Source: Pelagomonas calceolata (Eukaryota; Sar; Pelagophyceae; Pelagomonadales; Pelagomonadaceae). From it: a DNA stretch of 64,000 nt. The notes under the pieces were generated by a model. It worked only from the letters and a program-made list of their open reading frames with translations, did not search any database and was not told the DNA's origin. The stretch is from the NCBI GenBank assembly GCA_918797485.1, contig CAKKNE010000002.1:1268501-1332500 (forward strand), in the 5' to 3' direction. Within the stretch, counting starts at the first letter, position 1. Every line of letters begins with the position of its first letter. The position numbers and the translations under genes are program-made. Positions 2,781 to 58,267 of this stretch are shown here, one piece after another.

Positions 2781-3296
2781 TTAGTTGCTCACTGCCATAT
2801 GGCCACACGGATGCTTTTCGCAGGCCCTTCTGTACAGGGCAGGAGAAGAGCTACTCAGAAGTGCCTTGCATGCGATAAATAGCTCGCATAGCCGCGAAAC
2901 GCTTGAGATCTTGGCAACGCGACCTAGCGGACTAAGACACTAGCAAGCAAGCAATAAGCCTCTGTGAAAAAAGGCCGCGTTTACGCCAACGCGTGCCCGC
3001 CGTACAGTCACTGGCAAGCAGCGTTTCCTACGCGTCGTCATTGTGCTGTAGGCCAAGCCGCGTCATCGCCGGTGAAGCACAGCCCCAGCTCTGCCGCCTC
3101 GCCGCCGCCGCGCCGCGAGCTGCCCGCGCACGAGCCGCCCGCCGCCGCGCGCCGTCCGTGCCACCCGTGTGGGCCGTTCGCCGCGCCGCGCACATTTATC
3201 CGCCGCGAGCCGCCGCGAGCCGCGCGCACACCACCCGCTTGCGAGAGCGCGCGTGGGCTGTTAAGCTCGCCGCCGTAGCGCCGCAGCGGGACCAAG
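2781..3296. other. Divergent promoter region (JmjC / SmD2)
   Basis: No gene is seen in these 516 bp. The region holds one GCTAG palindrome (2923-2945) and a GC-rich leader in front of SmD2. Confidence 0.5.
2923..2945 (-). promoter_or_regulatory. GCTAG palindromic intergenic element, copy 1
   Basis: Read on the minus strand: GCTAGTGTCTTAGTCCGCTAGG, preceded by GCTTGCTT. It lies 143 bp upstream of the JmjC start and 352 bp upstream of the SmD2 start. Confidence 0.6.
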
Positions 3297-3623
3297 ATGT
3301 CCGCGATGGAGGACAAGGAGGGCGGCGCCGAGGACGAGTTCGCGACGGGCCCCCTCTCTCTCCTATTGCACAGCATGCGCACGAACTCGCAAGTACTGAT
3401 TAATGTCCGGAACAACCACAAACTGCTCGCGCGGGTCAAGGCGTTTGATAGGCACTGCAACATGGTTTTGGAGAACGTGAAGGAGGTCTGGACCGAGGTC
3501 CCGAAGACGGGCAAGGGCAAGAAGAAGGCCAAGCCCGTGAACAAGGAGCGGTACATCTCGAAGATGTTCCTGCGGGGGGACTCCGTGATTTTGGTGTTGC
3601 GGAACCCGAACCTCGGGGCCTAA
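3297..3623 (+). CDS. SNRPD2: Small nuclear ribonucleoprotein Sm D2
   Basis: A 108-residue protein that matches SmD2 end to end: [20 protein letters not shown], then [23 protein letters not shown] (Sm motif 1), then [20 protein letters not shown] (Sm motif 2). SmD2 is a subunit of the heptameric Sm ring on U1, U2, U4 and U5 snRNAs. Its length is as expected for the family, and the acidic N-terminus ([15 protein letters not shown]) is normal. The stop codon TAA (3621-3623) overlaps the stop codon of the opposite gene (3620-3622 on the minus strand), so both transcripts must overlap at their 3' ends. Confidence 0.95.
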
Positions 3624-5563
3624 GATTTCTTACGATTATCTACCAAATTCCGCTTGCCGTCCTTCGTGTACCAGCCGATGCCGACCATTTTTCCGGAAGA
3701 CCACTTGCCCTCGTACTTCGCGCCGCTCACGAAGTCGTAGGCGCCCGGCCCGTGCTTTCGCCCGAACAACCAGTGGCCGTCGTGGACGTCGCCGTTGAAG
3801 AGCACTACTCTCTCTTTTTTCGCGGTGCGTTCCTTTTCCTCCGCCTTGGCGACGGTCTCTCCACTCATTTCGGCCAAAGCCTCCGCGGCGTCGGTTCTAT
3901 TGAGAATAGTGGACGCGACTGCCGAGCGCCCGAGTCCTAGCCGTCGACAATAGCGCTCGGGGAAGAGCTCCACCAGTAACGCCGCCAGAGATGTAGAATC
4001 GAGCGGCACGCACAGGGACGACCGGTCGGGCAGCGGCGCCCCCGGGTGCGCCCGCGCGTAGTTCTCGGCCAGGCCCAAAGCCACGACCTCGTGCAGGAAG
4101 CTACACGACGCCTGGGCCGTCGACGCGGCCACCGCGGTGAGCATGTCATCAGCGTCTGGGGCCTGGACGCGCGGCGCGAGATCTAATACATATGTCGCGT
4201 CGTCTAGTGTTGTCGAGGGTGGCGTGTCCGTCCACTCTACCTTGGCCGAGGCAGCACCAATAGAAACGCCGCCGCCGACAAACGCGGCGCCCGACTGCAT
4301 GTCCACGGCCGGCTCAAAAGGGAGCCAGCGCGGCGTCGCTGTCATTGTTGATGTACTCTCGAAGAACCTTGATAATAAAGCGTAGGGCACCAAGTCCGTG
4401 TCCCTTTTTGCTGCTAAGAGTACAGAACTGAGGGACGCGGCGCATCTCAGTAGTGACACGAAGTAGGCCATCCTATCGTGATTCTCGGGAGGCTGCCAAT
4501 GACCAAGGGGAGCTCTTGGAATGGGCACGCGCGGCAGCATCTTCTGACACAGTAACTCGCCTCGTTTCGCGACCTCTTGCGCGGCCTGTGATCCGGACCC
4601 GGCGTGGATGGCCACGCTCCACGGTATCGAGGCTCTCGCATGCAACGTCCGTCTCCCATCAGTCTCCTCGTCACAGACCTCGAGCACCTCCATCTGGGCC
4701 TTGACGTCCGCGCCCGTCGCGTCGCCGTCCCAGGTTCGTTCCCACTCGACCTTCCAGTCCCTTACCGTACTGTCGCCGAACATCTGATCCGACGTCCGGA
4801 AGGACTTGTAATTTTGTGAGATGGTCGCGAGGGGGTCCTCGGCGGGTCCTTTTAAGTGGGAAGGCCACTCGCGCTGCGCATTCGGCCCCCAGTCGTAGGT
4901 TGCGCACTCCTTCTCAAGAAACGTATCGCGTTCCTCACAATCTAGGAACAAGCCACCATGAGCCGTGCCACCCACGGCCTTCAACGCCACGTCCAATTCG
5001 AGGCAGCACCTCCCAATGAGCGTGCCGCGGTAGCACGGATGTAAGGTTGATAACCTTTTGGCGCCCCGGTCGCACGTCGACTCGAGAGATAACCAAGGCA
5101 ACGCGCCGTAGGCGTAGACGCCGCAGGCTAATTCGGACGCGACGCGATCGATATCTTCCGGTCTTGGTCGGCCGCAGTCCGCAAATGACAATTTCACCGT
5201 CGTCGGCCGCGCGTCGCCGGACCGAAATAAACCAGGTAAGGCCACGGCGCCGGTCGAGACGCCCTTGACCTCCTGGCGCATCTTCCGCACCATGGCCTCG
5301 GGCGGCATGACGACGCGCGGCGCGCGCGCGTAGGCGCCCTGGCCGTCGACCGGCAGCGCCGCGGGCCCGGGCGGCGGCGGCCGGCGCTTCGCCTGCGCGG
5401 CGTTGAGGCCCGCGCCGGCCGCGTGGCCCACGGGGTCCGTCATCTCGCGCAGCACGCGCGCTCGGAACTCCGCATCAGTCTCCGCCTCGCGCGCGGCGTC
5501 GGCGCGGCGCTGCTGGGCCTGGCGCTGCTTCAGCTTCTCGGCGAAGGACTGCTCGGACCGCAT
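3620..5563 (-). CDS. 647-aa protein with C-terminal MORN repeats
   Basis: The N-terminus is a charged helix ([23 protein letters not shown]). A region of about 500 residues follows that I do not recognise; it contains mixed alpha/beta sequence and a plausible globular core around residues 110-540. The last 70 residues hold MORN repeats ([22 protein letters not shown] and [20 protein letters not shown]). The MORN tail suggests a scaffold or membrane-contact role, but no enzyme motif is visible in the main part. The ORF is uninterrupted. It converges on SmD2 with overlapping stop codons. Confidence 0.65.
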
Positions 5564-6085
5564 CGTCGTCCTATCGGCTGCCCATTCGCATTGTCACCGG
5601 TTGGCACCGATGGCTGCCCAAGGTTGGGGCAGGAGGATGGCTCCCGGGCGCGACGTCGTCGCCGGGGGCGGGAGGCGTGTTCAAACCGACTACGCGAAGA
5701 AAAAGCGGCCAAAATCGAATAGTAGGCTAGTAGGATTACTCAAATCGAGGCCGCTGAGCGCGAGCGGGCAACAGGCATTTGTTGCCCAGAGAACGAACTA
5801 TGAGGTGAGACCGAGCATACGAAAGCATTGGTGCCCTACCCTCGACGCCGTCGCTCCGACCCCGGAAAGGCTGCCTCGCGCAACACAAGGGGCGCCGCGC
5901 GGCTGCTGCCATGGCGCCTTCTTCGCTGGAGAGGAGTGGGCCGCCGCGCGGCCGCAGCGCGCCGTACACGCCGGCCCGCTCGCACCGCGGGGTCCCAACG
6001 AGCCCCCTTGACAAAAGCGGCGGCCCCACGCCGCCTTTTTATCAAAACCACGCCCCGCGGAAAAAGGCCGACAAATCCCACACAG
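5564..6085. other. Divergent intergenic region with unresolved 5' end of the aminotransferase
   Basis: No confident gene is seen. A weak GCTAG-like half site lies near 5728 (GGCTAGTAGGATTACTC). The right end (AAATCCCACACAG, ending 6085) looks like an introner-type 3' splice site, so part of this region is probably intron. Confidence 0.35.
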
Positions 6086-7418
6086 GTGTTCCCGGTGCCT
6101 CGTCGCCCTCGCGGCGTGCGGTGATGCGCTGTCGCCCTTCCAGATCCTGAAGAGCCCGATCAAGAAGCTGCTCGGCAAGGACGCGGCGGCGCCCGCGACG
6201 GGCGCGCCGGACCCGTTCCTCAAGGACTTCTCGCGGCCCATGTCCATCCCGGAAGAGGGCATCGCGGCGGCCGTCGAGGTCATGCGCGGCGGCCGCCTCT
6301 TCCGCTACTGCGCGACGTCGGCGGAGACGTCGCACGTCGCCCAGGCCGAGAAGGAGTTCGCCGCGATGGTGAACCAGAAGTACGCGCTCGGCGTCAACTC
6401 CTGCTCGTCGGCGATCATGCTCGCGCTCATGGCCGTCGGCGTCGACCCCGGCGACCAAGTGATTACGAACGGCTTCACCTTTACGGCTTTACCGTCGACG
6501 ATCATGCGCTTGGGCGCGGAGCCGGTCCTCGTGGAAGCCACGAAGTCCTGGACCATGGATTTGGACGACCTCGAGAAGAAGATCGCCGCGTTCCCGGACG
6601 CGAAAGTCTTGCTCTTATCGCACATGCGCGGCAAGGTCTGCGACATGGACCGGGTGGTGGAGATCTGCGAGAAGAACGGCATCACGTTGGTGGAGGACTG
6701 CGCCCACTCCTGCGGCGTCACGTGGCGGGGCAAGCAGTTGGGGTACCACGCGAAGGTCACGGCCTACTCGACGCAGTCGGACAAGGTCATCAACTCTGGC
6801 GAGGGCGGCTTCATCACGACCGACGACGACGAGATCGCGGCCAAGATCATCTACCTCTCGGGCTGCTACGAGCGCCGCTACGGCAAGCACGCCGTGCGGC
6901 CGGCCGACGAGCTCTGCGAGGTCGCCATGGCCGAGATGCCGAACCTCTCCTGCCGCATGAACGAGGTCACGGCCGCCGTCATGCGCCCGCTCATCAAGAA
7001 CCTGCCCCAGCGCGTCGAGGACTACAACCGCCGCTACGACTCCGTCGTCAAAGTACTGAGGGAGGAGGCCGGCGATATTATTGTGGTGCCCACCCAGGAT
7101 GAAAGAGTGGGCACGGTCGGCGACCACCTGAACTTCTACCTCACGGGCGTCACGGACGAGCAGAACGCGCTCTTCCGGCAGACGTGCGTCGCCATGGGCG
7201 TGCCCGTGTCCTGGTTCCAGTCGCAAGTCAACGCGCGGTGGCACGTGAACTGGCGCAAGTACGGCTCGCCGACGTTCGACCTCCCGAACACGGACGAGGT
7301 GCTGCGCTTCGCCTACGACCTCAAGATGCCGCCGTACTTCGACGACGCGGACTTCCCGGCCTTCGCGCGAGTGATCGCGTACGCCGCCCGGGTGGCCGCC
7401 GGCGACGACGACCTCTGA
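6086..7418 (+). CDS. DegT/DnrJ/EryC1/StrS-type PLP aminotransferase
   Basis: The frame is continuous from a splice-acceptor-like CACACAG (6079-6085) to the stop. The internal ATG at 6240 lies inside a conserved stretch (SRPMSIPEEGIAAAVEVMRGG), so it is not the true start; the upstream ATG exon was not found. The new N-terminus reads RCLVALAACGDALSPFQ, which looks like a secretory/plastid leader. Counting from 6240, D153 (VEDCAHS) and the Schiff-base K182 (QSDKVINSGEGG) are present. Family members aminate keto sugars or act on amino-shikimate-type substrates; the substrate here is unknown. Plastid location is inferred. Confidence 0.75.
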
Positions 7419-7798
7419 GCGCGCCAGGGCGGTGCCTGAAGAATTCCTCTCCTCTTGCCGGCCGCCGCTCGCCGACGCCCCCCGTCGACGACCCCCTCTG
7501 CCGCCAACCCCGCGAAGTTTTAACATGTTCCGCTCGCAAATTTACTCTTATTATTATCGCACGGGTTTCTTCCTGCTTTTGCGGCTTTTTTGCGGTGCTT
7601 GCGTACGGCGGCGGGCGAGCTAGGCCGAAATTATTCGATCAGTGACGATAACGTGCCAGTCGCATTGGCTAGACTGCCTATCTGTGCCACAGCTTCCTGG
7701 TAGACAATCATAACCAATCAAGCCAATTGCAGCGGCGCCGAGATCGCCCGCACAATTCAGCCGCGATCGACCGCACAATTCAGCCGCGACGACGACGA
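7419..7798. other. Intergenic region
   Basis: No gene is seen. It contains a 23-bp tandem duplication (7742-7787) just before the next gene. Confidence 0.4.
7742..7787. repeat. Two 23-bp tandem copies
   Basis: The unit is GATCG(C/A)CCGCACAATTCAG followed by CCGC. The two adjacent copies differ at one base. They lie 12 bp before an ATG. Confidence 0.8.
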
Positions 7799-8471
7799 TG
7801 AGGCTCGCCGGCCTCCTGCTAGCGTTGCTGATCCACGGAGGCTCGCCGGTAGAACTCTCGCCGGTAGACAAGGATACATTCCCGCGTTAAAACTCATCGG
7901 CGGGATCCTCAACGCGAAGGATTTGGGCATTGACAAGAAGAAGACGTACAAGAAGAAGCACCACCATCATCACGAGTATCGACCTGCGTGGAAATCAACC
8001 AGTGAGTTAGTGTTTCGGAGGGAGACGACATCGCGTCGATGGCGTGCGGTGCCTAAAATTTGATTTCCACACAGGGATCCGGTCACAGCCGCGGCCCATA
8101 CGATCCAGAAATTGTTCAAAGGTAAGCAGTCGCCGGCCACGAGCCAGGTGTCCGCCGAGCTGTCGCCTTACGTCGCCTCCGAACGCTTCCGCAGCGAGGA
8201 GTCGCCGCCGCAGAACGTCGTCGTCGCCGCCGTGGCGTATCCCTTCAAGGCCGTGGCAGGGTTGTTTATGCCCGCGCCGCAGCGCCGCCAGTCCGACGGG
8301 GACCTCTCACCGATGACGGCGAGCCGACCTGTGAGCCGCGCCAACACCTCGACCACGACTATGCATTCGCCGCCGCCTGCGCCGCGGATGCTCGACGACC
8401 ACGAGCTCCCGCGGCCACCGATCGCTCGCAACGAACGCGGGCTCGGGAGCACGTGGTACGGCGAGTCCTGA
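7799..8471 (+). CDS. Small secreted or membrane-linked protein with one introner (5' end unresolved)
   Basis: The right-hand exon (8075-8471) is Ser/Pro-rich (SPPPAPRMLDDHELPRPP) and contains the hydrophobic patch VVVAAVAYPFKAVAGLFMP. The left exon reads GYIPALKLIGGILNAKDLG followed by a Lys/His-rich stretch. They join in frame through the introner at 7976-8074. The only good leader, MRLAGLLLALLIHGGS at 7799, is in a different frame from the left exon, so there is either a further splice event or a small indel between 7849 and 7872. I do not recognise the protein. Confidence 0.35.
7976..8074 (+). mobile_element. Introner element (intron of the preceding gene)
   Basis: A 99-nt intron. The TSD copy GTATCGAC (7976-7983) supplies the GT donor, and the matching 3' copy is GGATCCGG (5 of 8). 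The element itself is 7984-8074, starting CTGCGTGGAAATCAA and ending TTTGATTTCCACACAG. The CAGTGAG mark lies at the 5' end (forward orientation). Splicing restores the frame CAC GAG GAT CCG. Confidence 0.85.
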
Positions 8472-8545
8472 ACATACTGTCGTGGCGGCTGATAGTGTAT
8501 ATACTAAGTACTTCTCTTACTTGGAGGACGACGACGACAGCAGGA

Positions 8546-12727: not shown

Positions 12728-13257
12728 CCTGCCGCTACGAAGCCGCTTCGGCACCACTGGTAGTGCGGCACTGGGGGGCTGCCTGGGGGCCGCGCTGGGG
12801 GCTGCCGCTGCTTGCGGCGGACGTTGCGGCGTTGCTCCGTCGCTGCGGCGCGTAACAGTTGCGCACCGTCGCGCCGCGCCGCTCGTTTTTGGCACCCAGC
12901 TTCGCAATCAACTGGCAATTTTACGGGATGAACGGGCAGCCTGGGAGCGCTCGTCTGGTCCTTTGAGGGCTCGCATAGCTCTCCAGACACGTCCGTGTAG
13001 ATATACGTAATGCACTCTAGTGTCTTACAAGCCGCTAGCTACACTCAGCTCGAGACTAGCTCGAGCCGGCTTTTTTGGCCCTAACGCTGCGCTTGACAGC
13101 ATAACTGGGTTGAGGTGCGCTTATATAGCTGCCACAAATTCTGCGACCAGCTGTGCGGTCGCAACCCACTGATTTTGGACCTGTGCATTGAGACCTCCAA
13201 GGAGCCAGGCGAAGCCATCGAGCCAGCGCGCGCGGAACAATCACAGTTAATAGAGCC
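12728..13257. other. Divergent promoter region
   Basis: No gene is seen. It holds a GCTAG palindrome at 13015-13040. Confidence 0.45.
13015..13040 (+). promoter_or_regulatory. GCTAG palindromic intergenic element, copy 2
   Basis: Reads CTCTAGTGTCTTACAAGCCG then CTAGCT. It sits 288 bp from one divergent start and 218 bp from the other. Confidence 0.65.
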
Positions 13258-14397: not shown

Positions 14398-14421
14398 TTG
14401 TTGTAATTTTTTACTCGAAAC

Positions 14422-15669: not shown

Positions 15670-16022
15670 CTTTGCTCTTCAACTGGTAGTGGACACACAG
15701 ACAGACGCTGCGCGCCGAGAATTCGTCCTGTGGCAGTGAATGCAAGCGCTGCGTACGCTCGTTTGCCGCCGTGCGTGAGCGCTGCGGCGTATTCAAGCAA
15801 AGGACAAGGCACTTTTTGACCTGCTAGCGTGCCTGTAAGACACTAGCAAGCAAGGAAAGGGCTGTTCGTAGCAAAGGGAACGCTCCCGCCGCGAGGACGA
15901 GTAGCTGCGAGCCTTTCGAGGACAGCGCGATTTCAATTCTATGCAAATCAGGTGCTGAGTAATTACTGGCGCGCGGGCTGCCTCGCATCGACACTTGAAA
16001 AGGCAGGGCTGCCTCGTCAGAG
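15670..16022. other. Divergent promoter region
   Basis: No gene is seen in 353 bp. A GCTAG palindrome lies in the middle (15823-15847). Confidence 0.45.
15823..15847 (-). promoter_or_regulatory. GCTAG palindromic intergenic element, copy 3
   Basis: On the minus strand: GCTAGTGTCTTACAGGCACG then CTAGC, preceded by TTGCTT. It is almost centred: 154 bp from one start and 176 bp from the other. Confidence 0.7.
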
Positions 16023-17441
16023 ATGGCCGCCGACTGGCAGCCCCGCAGGGCCAACGCCTGGTCTCCGAAAGATGACTACCCCCTCAAATTGCAGCTAGGA
16101 TTACCGAGAGTGGCCAAGGAGTGGAGCAACTCCTGCGCCGCCGCGGACAAGACCTGCAAGCGAGCACTCCAAGTCAGGGTCTGGGTGCGGATCACGCAGA
16201 TTTTGAATGTTGGTCGACCGATGAACACGTTTCGCTGCGCCTTCGACCTGACCCTCGAATGGGAAGATCAGACGTTCAAACCGGTCATCAGCAACGACGT
16301 GCCCTTCGACCAGGTCGACTGGGCGCGCCACTGGCGGCCGCGCTGGTCCCTGGCCAATCTGGCCTCCGAGATGCATGTAGAACCGCTGTCGTCGTCGTGC
16401 TTCACGCTGCATCCGGACCCTGACACGTTGAAGCCTCGAGTACGGCTCACACAGCGCGTGGCCGGGACGTTCTTCGAACCTTTCAGTCTGAGAAGATTTC
16501 CGTTCGACGTCCAATCGCTAACAATTGCGATCTCCTGCGACGAGCCGCAGTCCTCGGTAGCGTTCGTCGACGCGATGGAATCCACATTAGATGCGGGGCC
16601 TTTTAGTCCACGCTTGGCGGAGTGGCTCCTACTGCGAAGGGACACGGGCTTACAAGCGAACCTACCGTTGGACCAGCGGACGCCGTTCACGAAGACAATA
16701 ACCCAGATGGACGGCTCGCGGGCCTTTCCCTTTTCTGTCTTCGTGGCGCGGATGCCCGTGAAAAGAAAAACAGGATACTACCTCACGAATATCATACCCA
16801 TCTACTTCATCATTGTCGTGTACGGTTGGCTGGCCTTCGGGAACCTACCGGACCAAGACAACCAGGACCAACTGAATTTTTTAGCTTCATTGTTATTAAC
16901 GATGGTCTCATTCAAGTTTACGTACCGAGAAACGCTACCCAAAGTCCACTACCTCACGCTGATGGACTGGTACGTCTACGCTTCAGTGGTTATGCTTGGC
17001 CTACAAGGTGTTATTCATGTCTGGGCCAAACATAGTACACATAGTCAGAAGCGACCGCGGGAGCTGTATGGTTTAGTACTACTCGTGTGTCTGTGGTTCT
17101 TCATCCACGGCGGCATCATTCTCTATGCCTACCGGTTCTTCTCGTATTTGACGGAGCTCGGGCCCACGGAACTGCGCGACTACATCGACACGTTTCGCAA
17201 GTCGGACCACGGCATCGAGACGCAGAACGAGAATAACTACCGCACCCATATCGGCGGCCGCAAGCCGTCGGTGCCTTCGATAAGTTTCATGGCCGCGCCG
17301 CACCTGACCGGCGCGCGGCTCCCGACGGTGACCGCGGCGCAGATGCAGCGCGAGGGCTCGGTGCTGAACAGCCCCGAGATCGGCTCGCTCTTCTCCGGCG
17401 ATGAAGATGTGGGTTCACCTGAGACGAAGGCGGAGTGCTAA
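16023..17441 (+). CDS. Pentameric ligand-gated ion channel (Cys-loop superfamily type)
   Basis: A 472-residue protein. Residues 1-245 form the extracellular beta domain, with the diagnostic FSLRRFPFDVQSLTIAIS segment (about 154-171). TM1 (251-272, GYYLTNIIPIYFIIVVYGWL), TM2 (284-300, LNFLASLLLTMVSFKFT), TM3 (311-334) and TM4 (348-370) follow in the usual order, with YRETLPKVHYLTLMDWY linking TM2 and TM3. The first cysteine of the Cys loop is missing, as in prokaryotic pLGICs. No clear signal peptide precedes the domain, so a short 5' exon may be missed. The transmitter is unknown. The cytoplasmic tail is Ser/Glu-rich. Confidence 0.8.
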   Translation: MAADWQPRRANAWSPKDDYPLKLQLGLPRVAKEWSNSCAAADKTCKRALQVRVWVRITQILNVGRPMNTFRCAFDLTLEWEDQTFKPVISNDVPFDQVDWARHWRPRWSLANLASEMHVEPLSSSCFTLHPDPDTLKPRVRLTQRVAGTFFEPFSLRRFPFDVQSLTIAISCDEPQSSVAFVDAMESTLDAGPFSPRLAEWLLLRRDTGLQANLPLDQRTPFTKTITQMDGSRAFPFSVFVARMPVKRKTGYYLTNIIPIYFIIVVYGWLAFGNLPDQDNQDQLNFLASLLLTMVSFKFTYRETLPKVHYLTLMDWYVYASVVMLGLQGVIHVWAKHSTHSQKRPRELYGLVLLVCLWFFIHGGIILYAYRFFSYLTELGPTELRDYIDTFRKSDHGIETQNENNYRTHIGGRKPSVPSISFMAAPHLTGARLPTVTAAQMQREGSVLNSPEIGSLFSGDEDVGSPETKAEC

Positions 17442-17846
17442 GGCTTTCTAAGTCGTTTCTTTCTACTTGGTGTTAGGTCGCGCCCCGCGGCTCCCGCGCG
17501 ACGGGTCCGCGGGCGCGCGCCGTCCGGCCGGGTCGCGGCGGTGGCGTATATGAGTTCCACGCCCTCGCGGCGACGCCGCTAGTGGCCCGTAAGACACTAG
17601 AAAAACCAAAGACCTGGGGCAAGTCGCCGCGGCGGAATCTCGCGCGACACCGGCTCAACAGCGCACCGACGCGCCCAGCAGCTCTGCGGCGAGGGCCCCA
17701 AGCTGCCCCACCCACCAACAAGCAGCCCAGGCAAACAGCCCCGGACCTGTCCCAACAACAGCTCCGCCACAAGCAGCCCAAAAGCTGCCCGCAAGGCGCC
17801 CGCCCCAACAGCAGCCCCGGAGCAAGCGCCCAGTACAACAGGCCCC
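17442..17846. other. Intergenic region upstream of PMCA
   Basis: No gene is seen. It contains a GCTAG palindrome (17577-17600) and a stretch rich in GCCC/AGC words before the ATG. Confidence 0.4.
17577..17600 (-). promoter_or_regulatory. GCTAG palindromic intergenic element, copy 4
   Basis: On the minus strand: CTAGTGTCTTACGGGCCACT then AGCG. It is about 247 bp upstream of the PMCA ATG. Confidence 0.6.
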
Positions 17847-22028: not shown

Positions 22029-22060
22029 GCTAGCGTCTCTAGACACTCTAGAAAGCTAGC
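22029..22060 (-). promoter_or_regulatory. GCTAG palindromic intergenic element, copy 5
   Basis: Divergent form: GCTAGCGTCTCTAGACACTC (plus strand), followed by TAGAAAGCTAGC. About 196 bp upstream of EMC3. Confidence 0.5.
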
Positions 22061-25454: not shown

Positions 25455-26025
25455 GGTGGTCCTTGGTTCACTGCAGCAGCAAGTGGCAGCAGCGCTGTAT
25501 GGGCCTTTGCGCTCGTTTTCCGGCCTTGCCACTCCCGCAGCAGCAGCAGCACAGTGCGATAGTTAGCGCTTGGAGGTCTGGGGCTTATCGGCGGCGCGTG
25601 TACGGCAAGCGCTGGGACTTCAGCTGAACATGGCTGAGTGCCTGCTTGCTAGAGCCTTACAGGCCGCTAGCGCGCCGCGCGCTCTTTCTCCTTTGCACCC
25701 GTCCTTTAAGCCCTTTTACGCGTCCCAGACTCCTTCTTGGTACGTTTGCGTGGTGGACCTCGCGAGCCCGAAGGCCGTGGCGTCACAGCTTAAACCAAAG
25801 CTGATTGTCCACACCAGCGTCTACCTTTTTGCATCATCGAATCGCTTCGTGGTCGTGCGCTGTCAAACGCGTCGCAGCCGCGAAATTCTGCAGCGACGTC
25901 GCATTTTCACGGAGATCACAAGCACCGGAGAGCGCAGCCAAAGATCCAAGGCGCGACACCGATCACGAGAGCAAAGACAAGGCGCCACAGCACGCCAGCG
26001 ACGCATCCTTAACACAGGTCAAAGA
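25455..26025. other. Divergent promoter region
   Basis: No gene is seen, although one frame stays open through it. It holds a GCTAG palindrome (25644-25671). Confidence 0.45.
25644..25671 (+). promoter_or_regulatory. GCTAG palindromic intergenic element, copy 6
   Basis: Reads GCTTGCTAGAGCCTTACAGG then CCGCTAGC. It lies 190 bp from the RlmN start and 355 bp from the HAD start. Confidence 0.65.
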
Positions 26026-28455: not shown

Positions 28456-30017
28456 CTAGAATTCGGCCACGGCGAGCGTCTCGAGCCGCGGCTTCCCGTA
28501 ACGGTCCGCGCCGGGCCGCGGCATGGTCGGGGCCTCGACGGCGTAGAATTGAGCCTCATCCTCATCATCCGACTCACTCTCCACCACCGCAGCAGGGGAC
28601 CGCGACGCCCACGCGCGCGGCGACGCCGTGTCGCCCGTCCGCGGGGGCGGCGGCGGCATTAGAGGTGCCGACATTGTCCGATGCACGCGCCGCCGATCCA
28701 GCGCCGTCGTCGCCTCCAGCGAACTTTCTGGAGAAGTCGTCACGCGCGACACCTCCATGGCCGGCGACGGCTCCGGAAAGAATGATTCTGAGTCGATTTC
28801 CGGGAAGGGCGGCGCTAGCAGTTGCTCGACGGCGTGCCAATCTGTCGAAGCAAACGCGGGCGCCGCCCGCACGTCGTCCGCCAAAGGTCGGGAATGGGGC
28901 TCCTTCTCGAGGAGAGCTTCGAGCGTCACCGCCAAGGACTCGTCCTCGGGCAAGGAAGGCGTATCATTGAGAATAGACGCCATGAGCTGCCGCGGCGTCT
29001 CCGCGTGGAAGGGTGTACTACCAGTGGCCAATTCGCCGACGAGGATCCCAAGGGCCCACCAGTCGACGGCGACGCCGTAGGCGTGGCCCCGCAGGATTTC
29101 CGGCGCCATGTACTCGACGGAGCCACAAAAAGACCGGCACCCTTGGAGCGGGTCCTTGCCGAGGGCCGCGAGGCCGAAGTCGGCGACGACGCAGTGGCCC
29201 TGTGTTTTGTGACGGGTGAGGGGCGCAGCGACGGCGTCGCAGCGCGTCGCGTCGATGGCGTCGACGCGATACGCCGTCGGCGTGGCCCTCAGAGACTCTA
29301 CGCGCCTCGCGAGAGAGCCGCGGCAGTTCGAGAAGGAACGGACGCCGGAAAACGGACCTGGTCGTCAATCAACACGTTCGAAGGCTTGCAGTCCCGGTGG
29401 ACGACGCCGTGCGCGTGCAAGAACGTTAAAGCAACAACTAACTCAGCAAACGCAGCCACACAACTCTCGAGGGACACCTGTCTCCTTTTCAATAAAGTCT
29501 CCAAGGAACCGCGCGAGAAGTAGTCCGTGACCAGGTAGAAGGAATCTTGCGCCTGGAAGGCGTAGCGCAGGTCGATGACGAAGGGTCCTCCTTTCGATTG
29601 CAGAAACCCGAGGATGAACGGCTCGGCCTTCGAATTGGGCGGCTTCCGCCGGTCTTTTTTGCCGGGCTCCTTCTTCTGGCAGACCTTCATGGCAAACAAG
29701 CAGCCCTCGTCCGGGGGTTGGCGCTTCCTCGCTAATACGACGGTGGAAAACGCGCCTCTGCCAATCTCCTCAAGCACTTCAAAGCGGTCCTCGGCCTCGC
29801 GCGTGTCGCTCACGGACGAGGAGGCGGTGACATCAGATCGAGAGCGACCTAACGACAAGGCTGACAACGACCGCGTCAATCGCGACGACGTCCGCGACAG
29901 CGAGCGGGACCAGCTTTTCCGGAGGGGCTCGTCGCTCTTCGCCGTGTTCGGCTCGTCCTCGTGCTGTTTCCTGCTCTTGCGCCGGGGGCTCGACCGGCCG
30001 AAGAGGGAGAGGGGCAT
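28456..30017 (-). CDS. AGC-like serine/threonine protein kinase
   Basis: Two exons on the minus strand (29358-30017, 28456-29199), 467 residues. Start at MPLSLFGRSSPRRKSRKQHE, the first ATG in the frame. The N-terminal 85 residues are basic and Ser-rich. The kinase domain has the Gly loop EEIGRGAFSTVVLARKR, VAIK-type lysine FAMKVCQKK, HRDCKPSNVLIDD, DFG (VVADFGLAALG), activation-loop GCRSFCGSVEYMAPEIL and VDWWALGILVGEL. The GS(V/P)EYMAPEIL segment and HRDxKPxN point to the AGC/S6K-type group. The C-terminal tail is Pro/Ser-rich. The intron sits just before the DFG segment. Confidence 0.88.
29200..29357 (-). other. Kinase intron, possible old introner
   Basis: 158 nt, CAG/GTCCGT donor and AAACACAG/GG acceptor. 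No clear TSD (4 of 8) or TIR, but it contains GCGTCGATGGCGTCGACGCG, the core word of the introners. Boundaries are fixed by LIDDQ/GHCVVADFG continuity. Confidence 0.6.
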
Positions 30018-34987: not shown

Positions 34988-35011
34988 GCTAGCGTAGATA
35001 AAGACACTAGC
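34988..35011 (-). promoter_or_regulatory. GCTAG palindromic intergenic element, copy 7
   Basis: On the minus strand: GCTAGTGTCTTTATCTACGC then TAGC. It is centred between the divergent OsmC (105 bp) and paralogue A (88 bp) starts. Confidence 0.65.
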
Positions 35012-36073: not shown

Positions 36074-36074
36074 T

Positions 36075-36095
36075 CTAGCGTATCGACACACTAGC
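36075..36095 (-). promoter_or_regulatory. GCTAG palindromic intergenic element, copy 8
   Basis: On the minus strand: GCTAGTGTGTCGATACGCTA then G. It is 148 bp upstream of paralogue B and directly after the stop of A. Confidence 0.6.
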
Positions 36096-37173: not shown

Positions 37174-37196
37174 CACTAGCGCGCGCAGGCACTAGC
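37174..37196 (-). promoter_or_regulatory. GCTAG palindromic intergenic element, copy 9
   Basis: On the minus strand: TGCTAGTGCCTGCGCGCGCT then AGT. It is 200 bp upstream of the next gene. Confidence 0.55.
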
Positions 37197-39804: not shown

Positions 39805-40178
39805 CGTGTGGTGTGAGGTCAAATGACTCCTCCAAGGCCCCTGAGCCTCTGTGCCACACCACAGCGCGCACAGCTCACGTGGCTGGCTGCGTCGCTAAGA
39901 GACGGCCAGAACCGAACGACCGATGCCCAACTGGGCCCCCAGCGGCCGCGCTAGCTCAGCTGCAGAGTCGGAGCTTGCTAGTGTCCTATTACGCTAGCTT
40001 CCTGCTTTGGGGAAGAGCCCAGCAACGCGACCAACCAGCCCGTCGAAGCTGCGCAGCTTCGCCCGGAGGTCCAGTGCACTCGTGCTGCATCGCTGTCGCT
40101 GAGTCGAACGGCTAGTTGAGCAGCAGCGCCGACGCATTGCCAGCAGGTCGCATTGCCAGCAGCAGCGCTGTCGCATTG
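39805..40178. other. Divergent promoter region
   Basis: No gene is seen. A GCTAG palindrome sits in the middle (39973-40000). Confidence 0.45.
39973..40000 (+). promoter_or_regulatory. GCTAG palindromic intergenic element, copy 10
   Basis: GCTTGCTAGTGTCCTATTAC then GCTAGCTT. It lies 169 and 179 bp from the two divergent starts. Confidence 0.7.
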
Positions 40179-42157: not shown

Positions 42158-42570
42158 GGCGTTCGTGCTCTGAGGCCTGTTGCTCGAGCTGCACGTCAAG
42201 GAGCGTCCAGACGAGAACGTGTGGATGCGTGCGGCTGAGTCCTGTATCAGGGCTTCCAGCTTTAACGCTTCGGCAGTGCGAGACTCCGCGGTGGGGATCT
42301 ATGAAGCCGATTTGACTCCAGATTGGGCAATCTTTGAGTTATTTTTTTGTGGCTAGACGCCAGTAAGACACTAGCATCCGTTTTGTTTGCGCAAAATGGC
42401 TTTGAGACGATCTCTCTCTCCCGATTGATCGGACATTTTGCCCAGGCGGCTCTACAGAACGGGAGTAGAGCTATGCTAGAATATGAAATGCCGCGGCCCG
42501 CCACAGGACCTAGAACCGCAAAGATAGAATACGACACTCGATTATACCTATACAAAAACACAGCAGAAGA
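42158..42570. other. Intergenic region
   Basis: No gene is seen. A GCTAG palindrome lies at 42352-42375; the right half is AT-richer and probably is the 3' UTR of the NT5DC gene. Confidence 0.4.
42352..42375 (-). promoter_or_regulatory. GCTAG palindromic intergenic element, copy 11
   Basis: On the minus strand: GCTAGTGTCTTACTGGCGTC then TAGC. 195 bp upstream of the plastid protein start. Confidence 0.65.
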
Positions 42571-44016: not shown

Positions 44017-44374
44017 GCCGCTGCAAACTTTTGTCACGGCAAGCCACGGATGTTATTAGGTTCTCCGTCAGCTGTGGCCCTGCACGGTCAAGCTAGTGTA
44101 GCTGTAGAGCTGCAAAAGGCCGGCTGCAGAGGTTTCCTAGTGTCTTACAGGACGCTAGCCTCGCATTTTGAAAGTTGCAGCGTTTTCAGCGCTTGCAGGA
44201 CGTATTGCGACGAACAGGATGCAGCAGCAGTGCAACTGATCCGTCGTTATTGGACGACGCCAGCAAAAGCGGCTCAAAACGAGCGTATAGCCGTGTTGTA
44301 GGACTGCACCCTTCTTGCGGGCGTGCCGAGGCAGCGCTGGGCGTCGCATCGGTGGAACGCAATAGCTAGAAGCA
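44017..44374. other. Divergent promoter region
   Basis: No gene is seen. One full GCTAG palindrome (44136-44159) and a separate half site GCTAGTGTAGCTGTAG starting at 44092. Confidence 0.45.
44136..44159 (+). promoter_or_regulatory. GCTAG palindromic intergenic element, copy 12
   Basis: CCTAGTGTCTTACAGGACGC then TAGC; close to the consensus. 120 bp and 216 bp from the two starts. Confidence 0.7.
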
Positions 44375-46343: not shown

Positions 46344-46672
46344 TTTTGGGGGTCGCAGCTAGAAAAGCGATGCGTCTTTACGGAGGGCAAGGTCGCAGCG
46401 ATGCGTCCTTAAGGGCGAGCGCTTCCGGTCACCGCTGCGCGCGCCAATTTGGCAGCTGCAGCCCAGGCTGGCATGGGTTGCTAGTGTGTTACAGGACGCT
46501 AGCACGGCGTCGCGCTGGCGTGGATATTTTTGCGGGCTGCGGGCGTCTGGAGTCCAATGACTCATCCAATGCCACTCGCTGGCTTAGGCTATTATAGTTT
46601 CATAATTAGCACAGCTAGGGAAGGCCGCCGTCCCCCAGCGCGTGGCGTCTAGGCCATCGGCGCGTCGCCGTT
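46344..46672. other. Intergenic region
   Basis: No gene is seen. Holds a GCTAG palindrome (46480-46503). Confidence 0.4.
46480..46503 (+). promoter_or_regulatory. GCTAG palindromic intergenic element, copy 13
   Basis: GCTAGTGTGTTACAGGACGC then TAGC, preceded by GGTT. 137 bp upstream of the first ANTH ATG. Confidence 0.7.
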
Positions 46673-49639: not shown

Positions 49640-49640
49640 C

Positions 49641-49800
49641 CTGTGTGGAAATCAACACTGAGGCGGGTGAAGTCACGCGTAGCCTCTCTCGCGCTCGTGT
49701 CGAGTTCGCTCGACGCGGTCCGAATGGCCTCAAAATCGAAAAAGAAACCACCAACTTCATCAGAAGATGGAGACGACGCGCGCCGATGGCGTGAAGGCAC
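49641..49800 (-). mobile_element. Introner with only one recognisable end
   Basis: The TIR CTGTGTGGAAATCAACACTG starts at 49641, giving on the minus strand a perfect acceptor TTGATTTCCACACAG directly before GATG of the large gene. The core word GATGGCGTG is present near 49785. The opposite TIR and a matching TSD were not found, so the left boundary given is approximate. Confidence 0.6.
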
Positions 49801-49837
49801 CGCGGCCGTCGTGAAGGTTTTTTTTCTGCGCCGCGCC

Positions 49838-51141: not shown

Positions 51142-51678
51142 ATGTCGGGGCTTAAAATCACCAACAACATAACGAACCTCGACGGCCCGGGCCCGCCGGT
51201 AGTCCAAACCGACTTCGAGCCGCAGGGCGACACCGAGATTAGGCCGTCCTCGATGCCGTGACCATGAGAGTGAGCGCGGAGGCGCGCCCCGACGGTACAC
51301 CCACAGGAATACGACACGGACAAGGGCGACGGCAAGCTCACGATGAACGCCGCGCGCCGCCTGATCGGCGGTCTACGCCGCGGATACAGCCTGGCTGAGC
51401 TCGAGGTCGCGGCCGACCGCGCGATGAAGGACGGCGTCCGCTACGCGTACTGGCTCGCGCAGCCGTACCGCCGCGGCCTCTCGGACTCGCGGCCCACGAT
51501 CCGCGCCTACCGCGAGGCCTACGCGACGCTGAAGGACTTGCCCGGCCACGCGCGCGCGGGCCAGTTCGGTGCCGTGAACCGCGTCGTGGGCGCCTGGGAC
51601 GTTTACCGGCGCTACCCCTTCACGATCTGCGGCGGTGTCCTCATCGCGGCGGCCCCCTTCCTGTCGAAGGGGAATTGA
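51142..51678 (+). CDS. Small protein (about 142 aa), two proposed exons
   Basis: The right exon (51307-51678) encodes EYDTDKGDGKLTMNAARRLI then basic helical sequence (YAYWLAQPYRRGLSDSRPTI) and a C-terminal membrane-like segment (YPFTICGGVLIAAAPFLSKG). The upstream ATG at 51142 (MSGLKITNNITNLDGPGPP) joins it in frame if the 108-nt piece 51199-51306 (GTAGTC...CCCACAG) is an intron. Without it the protein would start at 51343. The size and C-terminal span are like an accessory subunit of a respiratory complex, but I cannot name it. Confidence 0.5.
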
Positions 51679-51729
51679 GGTGGGCGAGGCGGCACCCGCG
51701 GACTAGACTTTGATAATATACTGGTTAGC

Positions 51730-53050: not shown

Positions 53051-53462
53051 GGTGCGCGTTGGGAAACACGGGTTCTCCACCGCCGAAGTATCCTCGCGCC
53101 GCAAGATTATCAACTCACTTTCAGCTGCAGACTGCTGGCGCTGACGATCCTCCTGGGTGTTAAGTGCGAACCAACGATGAGTTTGGCGCAGTGATCAATG
53201 GCTAGGCGCGTATATCTGGTCTGTGGCTTGTGAGCTCTCGCAATATTTTGGAGCCCTAGGCGACGTTTGGCTGCACAATCGCGGGCCGGGCGCGCTGCGA
53301 CTTGCGGCCCCCGGCCTCAAGCTCCTAGAATCACACAGCAAACGCAGCCTGCGGCCGCGCAGAGGCACTCACAAATGCCCTTGTTGGTCACCCCGGGGAG
53401 CCGATGAAGCCAACATCCCCTTGAATTGAAGCCGCCGGCTCGACGCAATCACAACAAAAAAC
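53051..53462. other. Intergenic region
   Basis: No gene is supported in 412 bp. No full GCTAG palindrome. Confidence 0.35.
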
Positions 53463-55453
53463 TTAGTCTGAACCAGAAACGACGTCGAGGCGGCAGCGCC
53501 CGTCCAACCCCAGCGAGTAGCGGAGCCGCGGCCCGGCGTCGAAGCGCACGAGGCACCGGCTTTCGGAGCCCTCGAAGCCGTCCTCATAACGAACGACGAG
53601 GCCGACCGCGTCGGCCGCGCAGCTCAGCGACACCTCGCCCTCGATGGCCCGGGCCGGGAACCCGTCGGACAACTTGAATTCCACTATCTCGCGCTCCGCG
53701 ACGACGTCGCACTCGTACTCATCTAAATCAATGGGAACGAGCTCCCGCCGCGCCGCGCGCCACGCCGCGGCCGCCGCTTTTTGATCAACCCCGCAGATCC
53801 GGTCCGGCAGCGGCGCGTACGCCTTTGACAGATCAGAGGACCGGATCGCGACGGCGACGACGACCGCGCGACCCGGCGCGACGCGCACGCGCCGCCCCGC
53901 GAAGAGCTCCCTCAGTAAAGCGCATCGCCGCCAGAAGCGCAACGCGCAAGCGACGGGGTGGCCCTCGAGGTCGTGGTAGAACGGCTCGCCCGTCAGAACA
54001 ATAACTTCAGCGTCGGTCGAGGGCGCCTCACTCAAATCAGAATATATGGAGAGGGCCACTTCGAAGCGCCTCGCCACATTTGATGCGTGCAGCGCGTCGC
54101 GCGCGTCGGCGCACCAGGCCACCGCATTATCACAGCCCGCGCGCAGGCACGCGAGCGCGCAGATGGCCCCGTCGCCGACGTCCCAGACTTCTGCGGTGTC
54201 GTCGCCCCTCAAACAAGACGCCGCGAGGGCCCGGTGGTCGCTTGGTAACGACGCGAGGCGTCCTGTGGAATATCCCACATGTAATCCGCAAGCACATAAA
54301 GCAGCCGCCGACGTCACGAAGCCGGCGTCGAAGAAGACGTCGAAGACGATGTCCGTGTCCGTGTGCGTCGCCTTCAGGCTGAAGGGCACGCCGGGGCCGA
54401 TGTCGAAGGGCGCGTCCAAAGGTTGGGCCATCTGCCACCAGTGGTCCTGGAAGTCGTCCGCGTCCTCCCAATTCGACACGCCCTCGCCGAAGCCCAGGTC
54501 CATGCGCCAGCGGTAGCCGACGGCGTCGACGCGGCCCCGTTTTTGGACTTGTAGATCGACCTTCGCGCCGGCATGCGCGCCGCGCGCCGGCGGGCTCGAG
54601 AAGCTCAGGTCGAGGACGCGCACGTAGGGCGTGAGCCGCCTTGCGTTACCCAGCCGCGCCGGCGCACACGCCGCGCCGCCCCGGCACCGCTGCCGCCTGT
54701 AGTTGTCCGGGCCCCGCCGTTTCGCGAGCGACGCGTCCTCGAAGAGCGCCGCCTCGACGTACGCACCGCACGGTATGATTGTAGCGTCTTTTGATGCAGT
54801 GCCGCTCGCGAGGACCTCGCGCAGCGTCGGCAACAGGCCCTCTCCTAACAAGCCGTGGTCCGCGAGCTCGCAAACCTGTGCGCAAATCGAGCGGTGACCA
54901 CGCCATCGAGATGAGCGCCGCGACATTTGATTTATGCACTGTCGCCCACCACGAGCGACGCCGGCGTCGGAAGGCTAATAGCGTCGGACCGCGCATTTAC
55001 AATTGTACACCGCTCCTCTTCAAAACCTCCGGCGCGGACGCACGCCGTCGCGACTTTTGACAGAGCGGGCTCCATCTCGCACGCGACCACATGACCTATT
55101 CGGTCCTCTTTGCACAGGAGCTGGGTTAATAATCCAGTGCCGGCGCCGATTTCCAGCGCGACGCAGCCCTCCGGCGCAGCCTCGGCTGCTTGTTTAATCG
55201 CGCGCGCGTAGGCTCGATTACGTTCCGAGTCGTGGAGCATCGCCGCGAGCCACGGCTTGCGCGCGAAGTGCGCCACCGCGTCGTCGCGGTCGTCTTCGAG
55301 CCATCCTAATTCACAATCCTCGTCGAGCGCGCCTCTTAGTGATTGCTCGCGGCCCTCGGCGGCGACGCGGAGGCCGTCCCAGATGGACGTGGCGGTTACT
55401 AGCTTTTCTGGCTGGTGCTCGGTTTTGGTCTTTTTTGTGGGGGATTCGGCCAT
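53463..55453 (-). CDS. PRMT7: Protein arginine methyltransferase 7
   Basis: Exons 54950-55453 and 53463-54875, 638 residues. First methyltransferase module: HDSERNRAYARAIKQAAEAA, motif I VALEIGAGTGLLTQLL, VVACEMEPALSKVA, then across the intron ASLV/VCELADHGLLGEGLLPTL, which is the double-E region of PRMT7. The second module shows VRVLDLSFSSPPARG, DHWWQMAQPLDAPFDIGPGV, then VWDVGDGAICALACLRAGCD and FEGSESRCLVRFDAG at the end. PRMT7 monomethylates arginine and has two tandem modules. The second module keeps only a degraded SAM-binding site, as is normal. The intron is an eroded introner. Confidence 0.88.
54876..54949 (-). mobile_element. Eroded introner element in PRMT7
   Basis: 74 nt. TSD GTGGGCGA / GTTTGCGA (6 of 8). 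The 5' end CAGTGCATAAATCAAA matches 12 of 16 TIR positions, the 3' end GATTTGCGCACAG 11 of 13. Core word CTCGATGGCGTGG present. A stop codon inside explains why the two halves appear as separate ORFs. Confidence 0.85.
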
Positions 55454-56082
55454 GTTTTTTTAGGCTGTCGTTTGCCGCGCGTCGCTCTAGCACTGCTGCA
55501 GCACAGCAGAGATAGCAGCTGATTGATGCAAGCTGAGCCGTGCCGATGCAACCCGGCGTCAACGTCGATCCGTGCGTGCAAGCGAATGTGTCAGGTTCCT
55601 GCGTGCGCTCTGGCAGCAATGCGGCTGCGACGGCTGCACGGCCGCCTTGGGCCCTTGCTAGTGTCTATAGCTAGCGACGCATTTCACTTTTACTCTTGTA
55701 TTGCTGTAAGCCAGCCTTGTCACCGATCCGTCGACTCCTCTCAAGCAACGGGCGAGATTTCTGGAGGCTTGCTATTGACCTTGTATGCATGAAGCTCGGT
55801 GGAGGATAAGACGCAGTCAGCAGCGTCTGGTGCAGCGTCCAAGGACATTTGAGCGCGAGGGCAAAGCTGATGCTGTCGGCGCGGCATGCTGAGCCGCGCA
55901 GCAATGGATAGCGTGTCGTGTTTGAGATCGCAATCCACAGCCACATCAGGCTCCGAAAAACGCAGCCGCACGCAGCGATGAGGCACGACGCACCGCCGCG
56001 CGCCAGCCGCCGCGGCCGCCGCAGCACGCCGCTGCAATGCGGCAATTCATAACACCGCCATCCCGCCGCAGGCAACGCAACC
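55454..56082. other. Divergent promoter region (PRMT7 / HEML)
   Basis: No gene is seen in 629 bp. GCTAG element at 55657-55677. Confidence 0.4.
55657..55677 (+). promoter_or_regulatory. GCTAG palindromic intergenic element, copy 14 (short spacer)
   Basis: GCTAGTGTCTATAGCTAGCG then A, with a spacer a few bases shorter than usual; preceded by CTT. 204 bp from the PRMT7 start. Confidence 0.55.
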
Positions 56083-57441
56083 ATGCAGTCCGTAATAGTA
56101 GCGCTCGCGCTCACGGGCGCCGGCGCCTTAAGGACGCCGATGACCATGTCGACGGCCGTCAAGCACGTGACCACCAAATCCGACGCCATCATGAAGGAGG
56201 CCGCTACTTTGATGCCGGGTGGCGTCTCCTCCCCTGTCAGAGCGTTCAAGAGCGTCGGCGGCGGCCCCGTCGTCTTTGAGAAAGTCAAGGGCGCCTACGC
56301 CTACGATGTCGACGGGAACCAGTATGTGGATTACGTGGGCACGTGGGGCCCGGCCATCTGCGGCCACGCCAATGATGAGGTCAACGAGGCCCTCCGGGCC
56401 GCCCTCGAGAAGGGCACGAGCTTCGGCGCGCCCAGCGAGAACGAGAACGTCCTGGCCAAGATGGTCTGCGACGCCGTGCCGTCGGTGGAGATGGTGCGCT
56501 TCACGAATTCCGGTACGGAAGCGTGCATGGGTATGTTGCGATTGGTGCGGGCCTACACGGGCCGCGAGAAGATTATTAAATTTGAGGGCTGCTACCACGG
56601 CCACGCCGACGGGTTTCTGGTCCAGGCGGGCTCCGGCGTCGCCACGTTAGGTCTGCCCGACTCGCCGGGCGTGCCGCCGGGCGCGACGCAAGGTACGCTC
56701 GTGGCCGAGTACAACAACTTGGAGTCGGTCGAAGCTTTGCTGAAGGAGCACGAGTGCGCCGCGGTCGTCTTAGAACCGGTCGTCGGCAACAGCGGCTTCA
56801 TCCCCCCCACCCAGGAGTTCCTCGAGGGCCTTAGAGCGATGACGACGAAGTACGGCGCCCTCTTAGTGTTTGACGAGGTCATGACGGGTTTCCGCATTGA
56901 CTACGGCTGCGCGCAGAAACATTTTGGCGTGACGCCCGACGTGACGACGATGGGGAAAGTGATTGGCGGTGGCTTACCGGTGGGCGCCTACGGCGGCCGC
57001 AGGGACATCATGGAGCAGGTCGCGCCGGCGGGGCCCATGTACCAGGCCGGCACGCTGTCGGGCAACCCCCTGGCCATGACGGCGGGCATCAAGACGCTCG
57101 AGATCCTCTCGCGGCCGGGCCAGTACGAGAAGCTGACGAAGCTTACGGAACGCCTCGTGGAAGGCATCTTGCGGGAGGGCAAGGCCGCGGGCCACGCCAT
57201 CTCCGGCGGCTCCATCAGCGGCATGTTCGGCTTCTTCTTCTGCGAAGGACCGGTCACCTGCTTCCGGGAAGCGACGGCCTCGGACACGGACAAGTTCGCG
57301 CGCTGGCACCGGGGCATGCTCGAGCGGGGCGTCTACCTCGCGCCGTCGCAGTACGAGGCCGGCTTCATGTCGCTGGCCCACACGGAGGCGGACGTGGACA
57401 AGACGATCGCGGCGGCCAAGGAGGTCTTCGCGACGATCTAG
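56083..57441 (+). CDS. HEML: Glutamate-1-semialdehyde 2,1-aminomutase, plastid
   Basis: 452 residues, single exon. The leader [20 protein letters not shown] is a signal-type sequence before the mature start ([20 protein letters not shown]). All family blocks are present: [70 protein letters not shown], and the PLP lysine in [18 protein letters not shown]. The enzyme makes 5-aminolevulinate from glutamate-1-semialdehyde, the entry to chlorophyll and haem synthesis in the plastid. Confidence 0.96.
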
Positions 57442-57497
57442 GTCCCTTGTCCCGGTTCATAACGTTTACGTGCGAGTCGCTTCGTCGACGGCGTATG

Positions 57498-57519
57498 GCT
57501 AGTGTCTTTCGGCCGCTAG
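57498..57519 (+). promoter_or_regulatory. GCTAG palindromic intergenic element, copy 15 (not upstream of a known start)
   Basis: GCTAGTGTCTTTCGGCCGCT then AG. It lies 57 bp after the HEML stop, the only good copy not placed 5' of a gene I could identify. Confidence 0.5.
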
Positions 57520-57659
57520 GGTAAAATTAAACATTGGTGCACCGAAGTACTTATTCTCTCTCTATCATACAGGGCAGCGTCGCGTGGCGGGGTGGACCGA
57601 GGAACAGCGCTCCGGTGGCCGTCGGCGGCGTCTCCAACGGCGTCTGGCGTTCGCGTCGA

Positions 57660-57998
57660 TCATCGCGGAAAGGGGACCCGCTCTTCTTGGGCGCGGGTTG
57701 CGGCGACTGCGCGGTCGGGCTGTAGACCATTTACTTCCCTCTGGAGGTGTTGTAGCTCCGGGACTTCGAGCGGCACGGCGCGCACGATCCAAAGCGAAAC
57801 TGGCCCGCGAAGCGTCTCCGCACCGGCGGATGCCGGCGCCGCGGCCGGCGGGGGGGCGTCGCGCGTGCGCTGGCGCTTCTGGCGGGGTTCCGTCGACGAG
57901 TTCTTCTGGGTGAGCGGCGCGGCGCGCTTCTTGCTTCGGGCCGGCCCCCAAAAGGTTTCTAATGTGCTCTTCTGCTTTTGCTCTTCTTTTTTGGCCAT
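57660..57998 (-). CDS. Small basic protein with a PIP-box-like N-terminus
   Basis: MAKKEEQKQKSTLETFWGPA: the KSTLETFW segment fits the PCNA-interacting pattern (Q)xx(L)xx(F)(F/W) except that K replaces Q. A basic Ser/Thr-rich stretch (RSKKRAAPLTQKNSSTEPRQ then KRQRTRD) looks like a nuclear signal. The last 60 residues are less protein-like (PAAAPASAGAETLRGPVSLW), and a second frame is open alongside, so the 3' end may be mis-set or spliced. A small PCNA-binding or DNA-repair accessory protein is only a guess. Confidence 0.4.
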   Translation of the reverse strand: MAKKEEQKQKSTLETFWGPARSKKRAAPLTQKNSSTEPRQKRQRTRDAPPPAAAPASAGAETLRGPVSLWIVRAVPLEVPELQHLQREVNGLQPDRAVAATRAQEERVPFPR

Positions 57999-58239
57999 CG
58001 CGACTCGCGAGGAGCGGCGGCGCGCGCGCGTCTGTGTCTCGGTGGCGCGCGGCGCGACTTCAGGGATCTGTCGCGGCGCGTCCCGCGCGACGCTCGCGTT
58101 TTCCAGCCTATTGATGGCCAGTACTCGGCGCGTTTAAAGCCCCCGCAAATTGGGGCAGTGCACGTCGAAAGCGGAAGGGTGGAGGTATCGTTCTAGGCTG
58201 CCCGGACCGATGGGATGAGTATTACTGTGGACTCTCTGG

Positions 58240-58267
58240 CTTGCTAGTAACCATGTTACGCTAGCTT
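58240..58267 (+). promoter_or_regulatory. GCTAG palindromic intergenic element, copy 16
   Basis: CTTGCTAGTAACCATGTTAC then GCTAGCTT, a more symmetric variant (GTAAC-CATG-GTTAC-like centre). 242 bp upstream of the small PIP-box gene start. Confidence 0.65.

Follow-up and report, generated by a model that had tools for sequence, protein, structure and literature searches.

The DNA considered here is a 64-kb window (64,000 nucleotides, C2:1268501-1332500, contig CAKKNE010000002.1) of the genome of the pelagophyte alga Pelagomonas calceolata, whose assembly comprises 32,445,274 bases in 8 contigs (GCA_918797485.1) and for which 16,667 genes are given in the genome paper (PMC9481584). The gaps between its genes repeatedly carry a bipartite imperfect palindrome of about 24 letters, referred to below as the element. 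The window genes that bear it look mixed and include JmjC, F-box/Kelch, EMC3, 5'-nucleotidase and aminotransferase genes. A tRNA scan of the window found none.

A bipartite palindrome between genes

A preliminary description of the window had listed 16 good copies of the motif, eight in each orientation and all intergenic. Each of the 16 places does carry the motif, within 4 bp of where it had been put, and 14 of them score 15.7–34.1 bits against a gapped position matrix. The other two (37175 and 55657) fall below 12 bits, the score from which we speak of a strong site, and the word "good" does not extend to them. The strong copies comprise seven on the plus and seven on the minus strand, giving eight and eight once the two weak copies are added. 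All 14 are intergenic by our home-made gene models and seven of them sit in divergent gaps, the number first reported. Fifteen copies had also been placed within 410 bp upstream of a start codon. By the same models, 12 of the 14 strong sites lie even closer, at no more than 260 bp; the copies at 57498 and 58243 occupy a 1,979-bp gap with distant modelled starts, though an open reading frame (ORF) begins shortly after the second (Table 1).

Table 1 Strong and weak copies of the element in the window, with their distance to start codons (ATG)
Feature	Position	Strand	CTAG-CTAG spacing	Score (bits)	Context
Element	2923..2944	-	16	29.9	Divergent gap, nearer ATG 153 bp
Element	13016..13039	+	18	34.0	Divergent gap, ATGs at 230 and 300 bp
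Element	15823..15847	-	19	29.4	Divergent gap, ATGs at 166 and 188 bp
Element	17578..17601	-	18	30.8	Tandem gap, 257 bp upstream of ATG
Element	22029..22052	-	18	24.9	Tandem gap, 215 bp upstream
Element	25648..25671	+	18	28.2	Divergent gap, 205 and 366 bp
Element	34988..35011	-	18	32.8	Divergent gap, 99 and 242 bp
Element, minor form CTAGTGTGTCGATA	36074..36095	-	16	19.4	Tandem gap, 158 bp upstream
Weak copy	37175..37196	-	16	7.8	Below 12-bit cut
Element	39977..39998	+	16	28.3	Divergent gap, 183 and 191 bp
Element	42352..42375	-	18	24.8	Same-strand gap, modelled upstream gene end 89 bp away
Element	44136..44159	+	18	34.1	Divergent gap, 218 and 227 bp
Element	46480..46503	+	18	33.9	Tandem gap, 148 bp upstream
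Weak, shorter copy	55657..55679	+		5.0	Below 12-bit cut; between leftward and rightward coding segments
Element	57498..57520	+	17	29.6	57 bp past stop codon, next modelled start 1.97 kb off
Element, divergent left half	58243..58265	+	17	15.7	Next modelled start 1.22 kb off; 112-amino-acid (aa) ORF begins 58402

To place these copies in a wider context, the window was combined with C1:1,000,001-1,200,000 and with positions 500,001-520,000 of both C3 and C6. The resulting 304-kb sample represents less than 1% of the genome, with C4 and C5 outside it, and supplied the sites on which the matrix was trained; six sites scoring 9–12 bits were dropped. Genes were modelled from codon bias in open frames, giving 218 coding segments that cover 75% of the 304 kb. 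The same sequence or pattern reversed served as control.

The element is real, and a very strong one. The 24-mer consensus with up to three mismatches is matched four times in the window and not once in 100 shuffles. The 19-base form CTAGTGTCTTACNNNNCGCTAGC has 1,187 exact matches genome-wide (595+592), against 0+0 for the reversed pattern and 0.00015 expected from base composition. Seventy-three sites of at least 12 bits occur in the 304 kb, compared with 2 in the reversed sequence. A matrix built from the 14 window sites alone finds 61 such sites in the other 240 kb (4 in reversed sequence). Densities in the four samples are 219, 230, 400 and 250 sites per Mb, and extrapolation gives a genome total of about 7,800 copies.

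In its consensus form the element consists of TTGCTAGTGTCTTAC, a few variable bases and CGCTAGCT, together worth about 27 bits. Of these, 16.6 bits come from the left module, GCTAGTGTCTTA, and 10.5 from the right one, nnCGCTAGC. The two CTAG words are 18 letters apart in 43 of the 73 sites, 17 in 13 and 16 in 11, with two sites each at 15, 19 and 20. Counted as bare pairs of CTAG words across the 304 kb, the commonest distance is again 18 (38 pairs), and 16 (16 pairs) and 17 (12) form shoulders to this peak; CTAG words are almost twice as numerous in the reversed sequence, yet their distances there are roughly flat (at most 12 per distance, and 12 at 18). The inner TCTTAC had been described as conserved without being symmetric, and so it is: the positions of TCTTA carry 1.35, 0.58, 1.74, 1.17 and 1.24 bits, whereas the inner two positions on the right side carry only 0.61 and 0.19. 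The preference reported for the outer flank is likewise real, with T making up 59% and 69% of the letters at the two places just ahead of the left arm and 59% just after the right arm (71 sites). Base composition shifts around the element, from 45% A+T in the adjoining 20 bp to about 34% from 160 bp outward. Apart from the adjoining GCAAGC flank, no convincing second word was found at a fixed distance. The minor form recurs outside the table at L007:2200.

Position relative to genes and to the direction of transcription

The sites are concentrated in particular kinds of gap. Sixty-seven of the 73 lie between coding segments, one lies outside any bounded gap and five fall in coding segments, four of these scoring no more than 16.1 bits. 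A site is present in 38 of 61 divergent gaps, 18 of 41 tandem gaps, 6 of 49 ambiguous same-strand gaps and 2 of 63 convergent gaps. When gaps are matched for length (150–600 bp), the contrast persists, at 35 of 48 divergent gaps and 1 of 20 convergent gaps. The matrix from the window sites gives a similar distribution in the remaining 240 kb (divergent 30/49, tandem 13/30, ambiguous same-strand 5/36, convergent 3/50), with 6 of 61 sites inside coding segments. A site is found within 450 bp upstream of 77 of the 143 gene starts and within 450 bp downstream of 17 of the 143 gene ends. An equal density in coding or downstream DNA, which had been named as an outcome that would refute a promoter mark, is not what these counts show.

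The distance from site to start codon has a median of 202 bp and an interquartile range of 167–271 bp. In divergent gaps of 150–700 bp, 25 of 36 sites occupy the middle third, where 12 would be expected under a uniform distribution. In promoters of single genes the orientation of the element is unbiased, with 12 copies in the same sense as the gene and 14 in the opposite sense. Among the eight exact-match loci listed from the genome search, six have the site in a divergent gap, and in the other two it precedes a leftward gene by 195 and 179 bp.

As a proxy for transcription starts we used the avoidance of ATG on the sense strand, which marks 5' untranslated regions (UTRs). Across 36 divergent promoters ATG outnumbers CAT left of the element (91:55) and is outnumbered right of it (34:102; p 2.8e-10). 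Placing the strand switch at the element gives a better log-likelihood than placing it midway along the gap (-175.8 vs -182.1); the optimum (-175.1) is reached 25 bp to the left of the centre of the element. For 21 same-strand cases, 52 ATGs were counted in 5,095 bp lying upstream of the element and 26 in the 4,237 bp that separate it from the gene, while CAT goes the opposite way (36 and 50). Because the switch falls at the element, we take the element to separate the two directions and to lie outside the UTR.

A search of a prokaryote genome collection with the pattern returned four matches, all in marine metagenome-assembled genomes (L033–L036). One of these, L035, is filed as Spirochaeta and is eukaryotic by its proteins, one of which is 94% identical to P. 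calceolata P0002. It carries four strong sites (23.9–32.4 bits), all 144–240 bp upstream of a plus-strand gene, and one weak site (11.9 bits) that precedes a minus-strand gene by 250 bp. L034 has its site between divergent coding segments, at distances of 162 and 118 bp. Both L034 and L035 look pelagophyte. L033 mixes bacterial-looking with eukaryote- or algal-looking genes, and L036 is a bacterial-looking contig with its site some 105 bp from one end; since about 1.2 chance matches are expected in the collection, the L036 match may be one of them. Given the Pelagomonas-type algal look of L034 and L035 and the mixed genes of L033, these public marine bins, filed as Spirochaeta or proteobacterium, seem to be contaminated or chimeric. 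In a viral collection, two patterns of the element had no exact match, and a single match of a 16-mer was taken as chance, as it lacked the right arm.

Gap classes, proximity to gene starts, the ATG switch and the L035 sites together give strong support to the statement that the element marks promoters.

What the element may do

Because it recurs, mostly in the control regions just before genes, the element is probably the docking site of a putative gene-activating protein. Our preferred reading, to which we assign a probability of roughly 60%, is that it is a cis-regulatory promoter site for an abundant, probably dimeric factor that organises open promoters in the manner of yeast general regulatory factors. 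Observed directly are the sequence, number, spacing, promoter position and unbiased orientation of the element, together with the ATG switch; we infer the factor, its dimeric binding, the exclusion of nucleosomes or opening of chromatin, and the initiation step. An abundant, sequence-specific Pelagomonas factor would read the element as double-stranded DNA, as the lack of orientation bias suggests. Two GCTAG[T/C]G half-sites face each other and are spaced mainly at 16–18 bp, which points to two similar, flexibly joined DNA-binding units: the flexible link between them would tolerate the different spacings, and the left half would add a contact to TCTTAC. Bound near the middle of an intergenic gap of about 400 bp, the factor would keep nucleosomes away, and transcription would begin beyond the site, to one side of it or to both, some 200 bp ahead of the start codons. 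Nucleosome phasing by the element, one of the roles first suggested, is a compatible possibility. The suggestion of a dimeric factor setting a bidirectional promoter holds in part, in that a factor site setting up promoters fits best; the site is not specific to bidirectional promoters, considering its presence in nearly half of tandem gaps.

Several observations weigh against this proposal. The gene models behind the context counts are home-made. Twenty-three of the 61 divergent gaps lack a strong site, and 18 divergent promoters of 150–700 bp without one also show the ATG:CAT switch, more weakly (40:28 and 28:49); some of these 18 hold weak copies. The centring in divergent gaps is modest when compared with a uniform distribution (Kolmogorov–Smirnov p 0.04). 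Relative to the amount of non-coding DNA, divergent gaps hold a moderate excess of sites (39 vs 27.5 expected, p 0.003) and tandem gaps none (20 vs 18.1); the depletion from convergent gaps is clearer (2 vs 11.0, p 0.0005).

A bolder version of the proposal holds that one lineage-specific putative factor, reading a palindrome of about 27 bits, would define around half of Pelagomonas (perhaps pelagophyte) promoters, often for two divergent genes at once, with promoter identity residing mainly in one long word. We put this forward tentatively, as possible if doubtful.

The best-surviving competitor is an ordinary activator or repressor site of a large regulon, for example of growth, light or cell-cycle genes, as opposed to a general organiser. 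Such a role would account for the 66 of 143 gene starts that have no strong site within 450 bp upstream, and a site of 27 bits has more specificity than is usual for such a general organiser. The genes next to the window copies are of mixed appearance, however, and the extrapolated copy number is large for one regulon, so that we consider this alternative unlikely.

An element that serves as a boundary, insulator or replication origin and simply happens to lie in intergenic DNA poor in nucleosomes might also be found near the middle of divergent gaps and be symmetric in orientation, as observed. It would hardly be almost missing from convergent gaps, length-matched ones included, nor would it be expected some 200 bp before tandem genes, and we judge this explanation quite improbable. 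A signal acting in RNA, such as a hairpin in the 5' UTR or a splice-like signal (CTTACAG/CTGTAAG), draws on the pairing of the arms on the motif strand, with one G-U wobble as read from the consensus, and on the resemblance of CTTACAG to splice signals. Its chances appear very small: orientation relative to the gene is unbiased, the ATG pattern locates the element no further downstream than the edge of the transcribed region, and neither the window nor L035 or L003 gave an Rfam match at gathering score.

The short mobile element that had been among the suggested roles, whether resembling a miniature inverted-repeat transposable element (MITE) or forming an introner end with a promoter preference, has terminal inverted arms, thousands of extrapolated copies and the introner-like introns of P. 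calceolata (PMC9481584) in its favour, and is nevertheless the least credible reading of all, as the position is confined to promoters, the internal spacing differs between copies in steps of one base, the repeated sequences found in intron-like gaps are other ones, and of the 71 sites only three pairs of distinct loci have short stretches of similar flank (21, 32 and 75 bp; all-against-all BLAST). The introner form was set aside on position as well: 67 of 73 sites lie between coding segments, and only six of these are in ambiguous same-strand gaps, which are possible introns.

For a promoter site of the kind we favour, the closest working analogy is offered by the yeast Reb1/Abf1/Rap1 sites, Reb1 in particular, which like the Pelagomonas element are sequence-specific and lie inside promoters. 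The yeast sites have a different and much shorter sequence. The element recurs at a preferred distance upstream of starts and in either orientation; by position it would work like a general-regulatory-factor site, and it is a candidate member of that kind. Around Reb1 sites, nucleosome positioning is symmetric and independent of motif orientation, including at bidirectional promoters (PMC8163841). The vertebrate promoter element TCTCGCGAGA is also a palindromic DNA word and is bound by one factor, BANP (PMC10206803, PMC9363121). It differs in being a shorter, perfect palindrome of unrelated sequence without variable internal spacing, read by a BEN-domain factor; the Pelagomonas consensus is TTGCTAGTGTCTTAC-N-CGCTAGCT. 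The introner elements of pelagophytes and other algae are likewise multi-copy, with inverted ends in some families (PMC9860276), and introns of introner length have been reported in P. calceolata (PMC9481584). Introners are introns inside genes, whereas the Pelagomonas element is 24 bp long, intergenic and unrelated in sequence. The early promoter motif of the Aureococcus virus AaV (AAAAATGA) is another promoter motif of a pelagophyte system (PMC5917014) and differs in being viral, A+T-rich and unrelated in sequence.

No earlier description of the element was found in the literature searched. Term counts gave no use of "motif", "promoter" or "palindrom" in the main text of the P. calceolata genome paper (PMC9481584), and none of "motif" or "promoter" in two later papers on the species (PMC13284251, PMC12054182). 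A long and nearly invariant promoter word would permit direct promoter prediction in the P. calceolata genome and in metagenomes, and could serve as a natural bidirectional promoter in transformation vectors. It would also be a bait for the putative factor, which may organise around half of the promoters in an important ocean alga, and it allows a test of whether promoter-organising factors evolve independently in separate eukaryotic lineages.

Further repeats and neighbouring features

Other repeated words were seen in the same material. GGCTGCC/GGCAGCC and AGCGCTG are also enriched in promoters relative to coding and convergent sequence in the 304-kb sample. Intron-like gaps of the window near 29298, 38804, 50080, 60476 and 62827, together with similar gaps in the C1 and C6 samples, have short repeats in common, among them CGCCATCGACGCG and GGTTGATTTCCAC, which look like introner ends.

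A GC-rich repeat of about 80–150 bp (GTTACGGTGCTAGGACTAGTGGGCGG...CCGCCTCGGCAAACCC) is some 82–92% alike between L035 and P. calceolata. Copies lie at L035:295-440 and 2048-2185, at L003:2210-2360 (minus strand), at offsets 107977-108062 and 126260-126384 of the C1 sample and at offset 108-186 of the C3 sample. No Rfam match to the repeat was obtained in L035 or L003, and folding three copies to a consensus revealed no compensatory changes. In L035 it stands after stop codons, shortly before two of the elements.

Within the window, a 472-aa ORF at 16023-17441 (plus strand) has a weak match to the ligand-binding domain of neurotransmitter-gated ion channels (E 1.2e-5; 25.3 bits, where the curated cut-off is 26).

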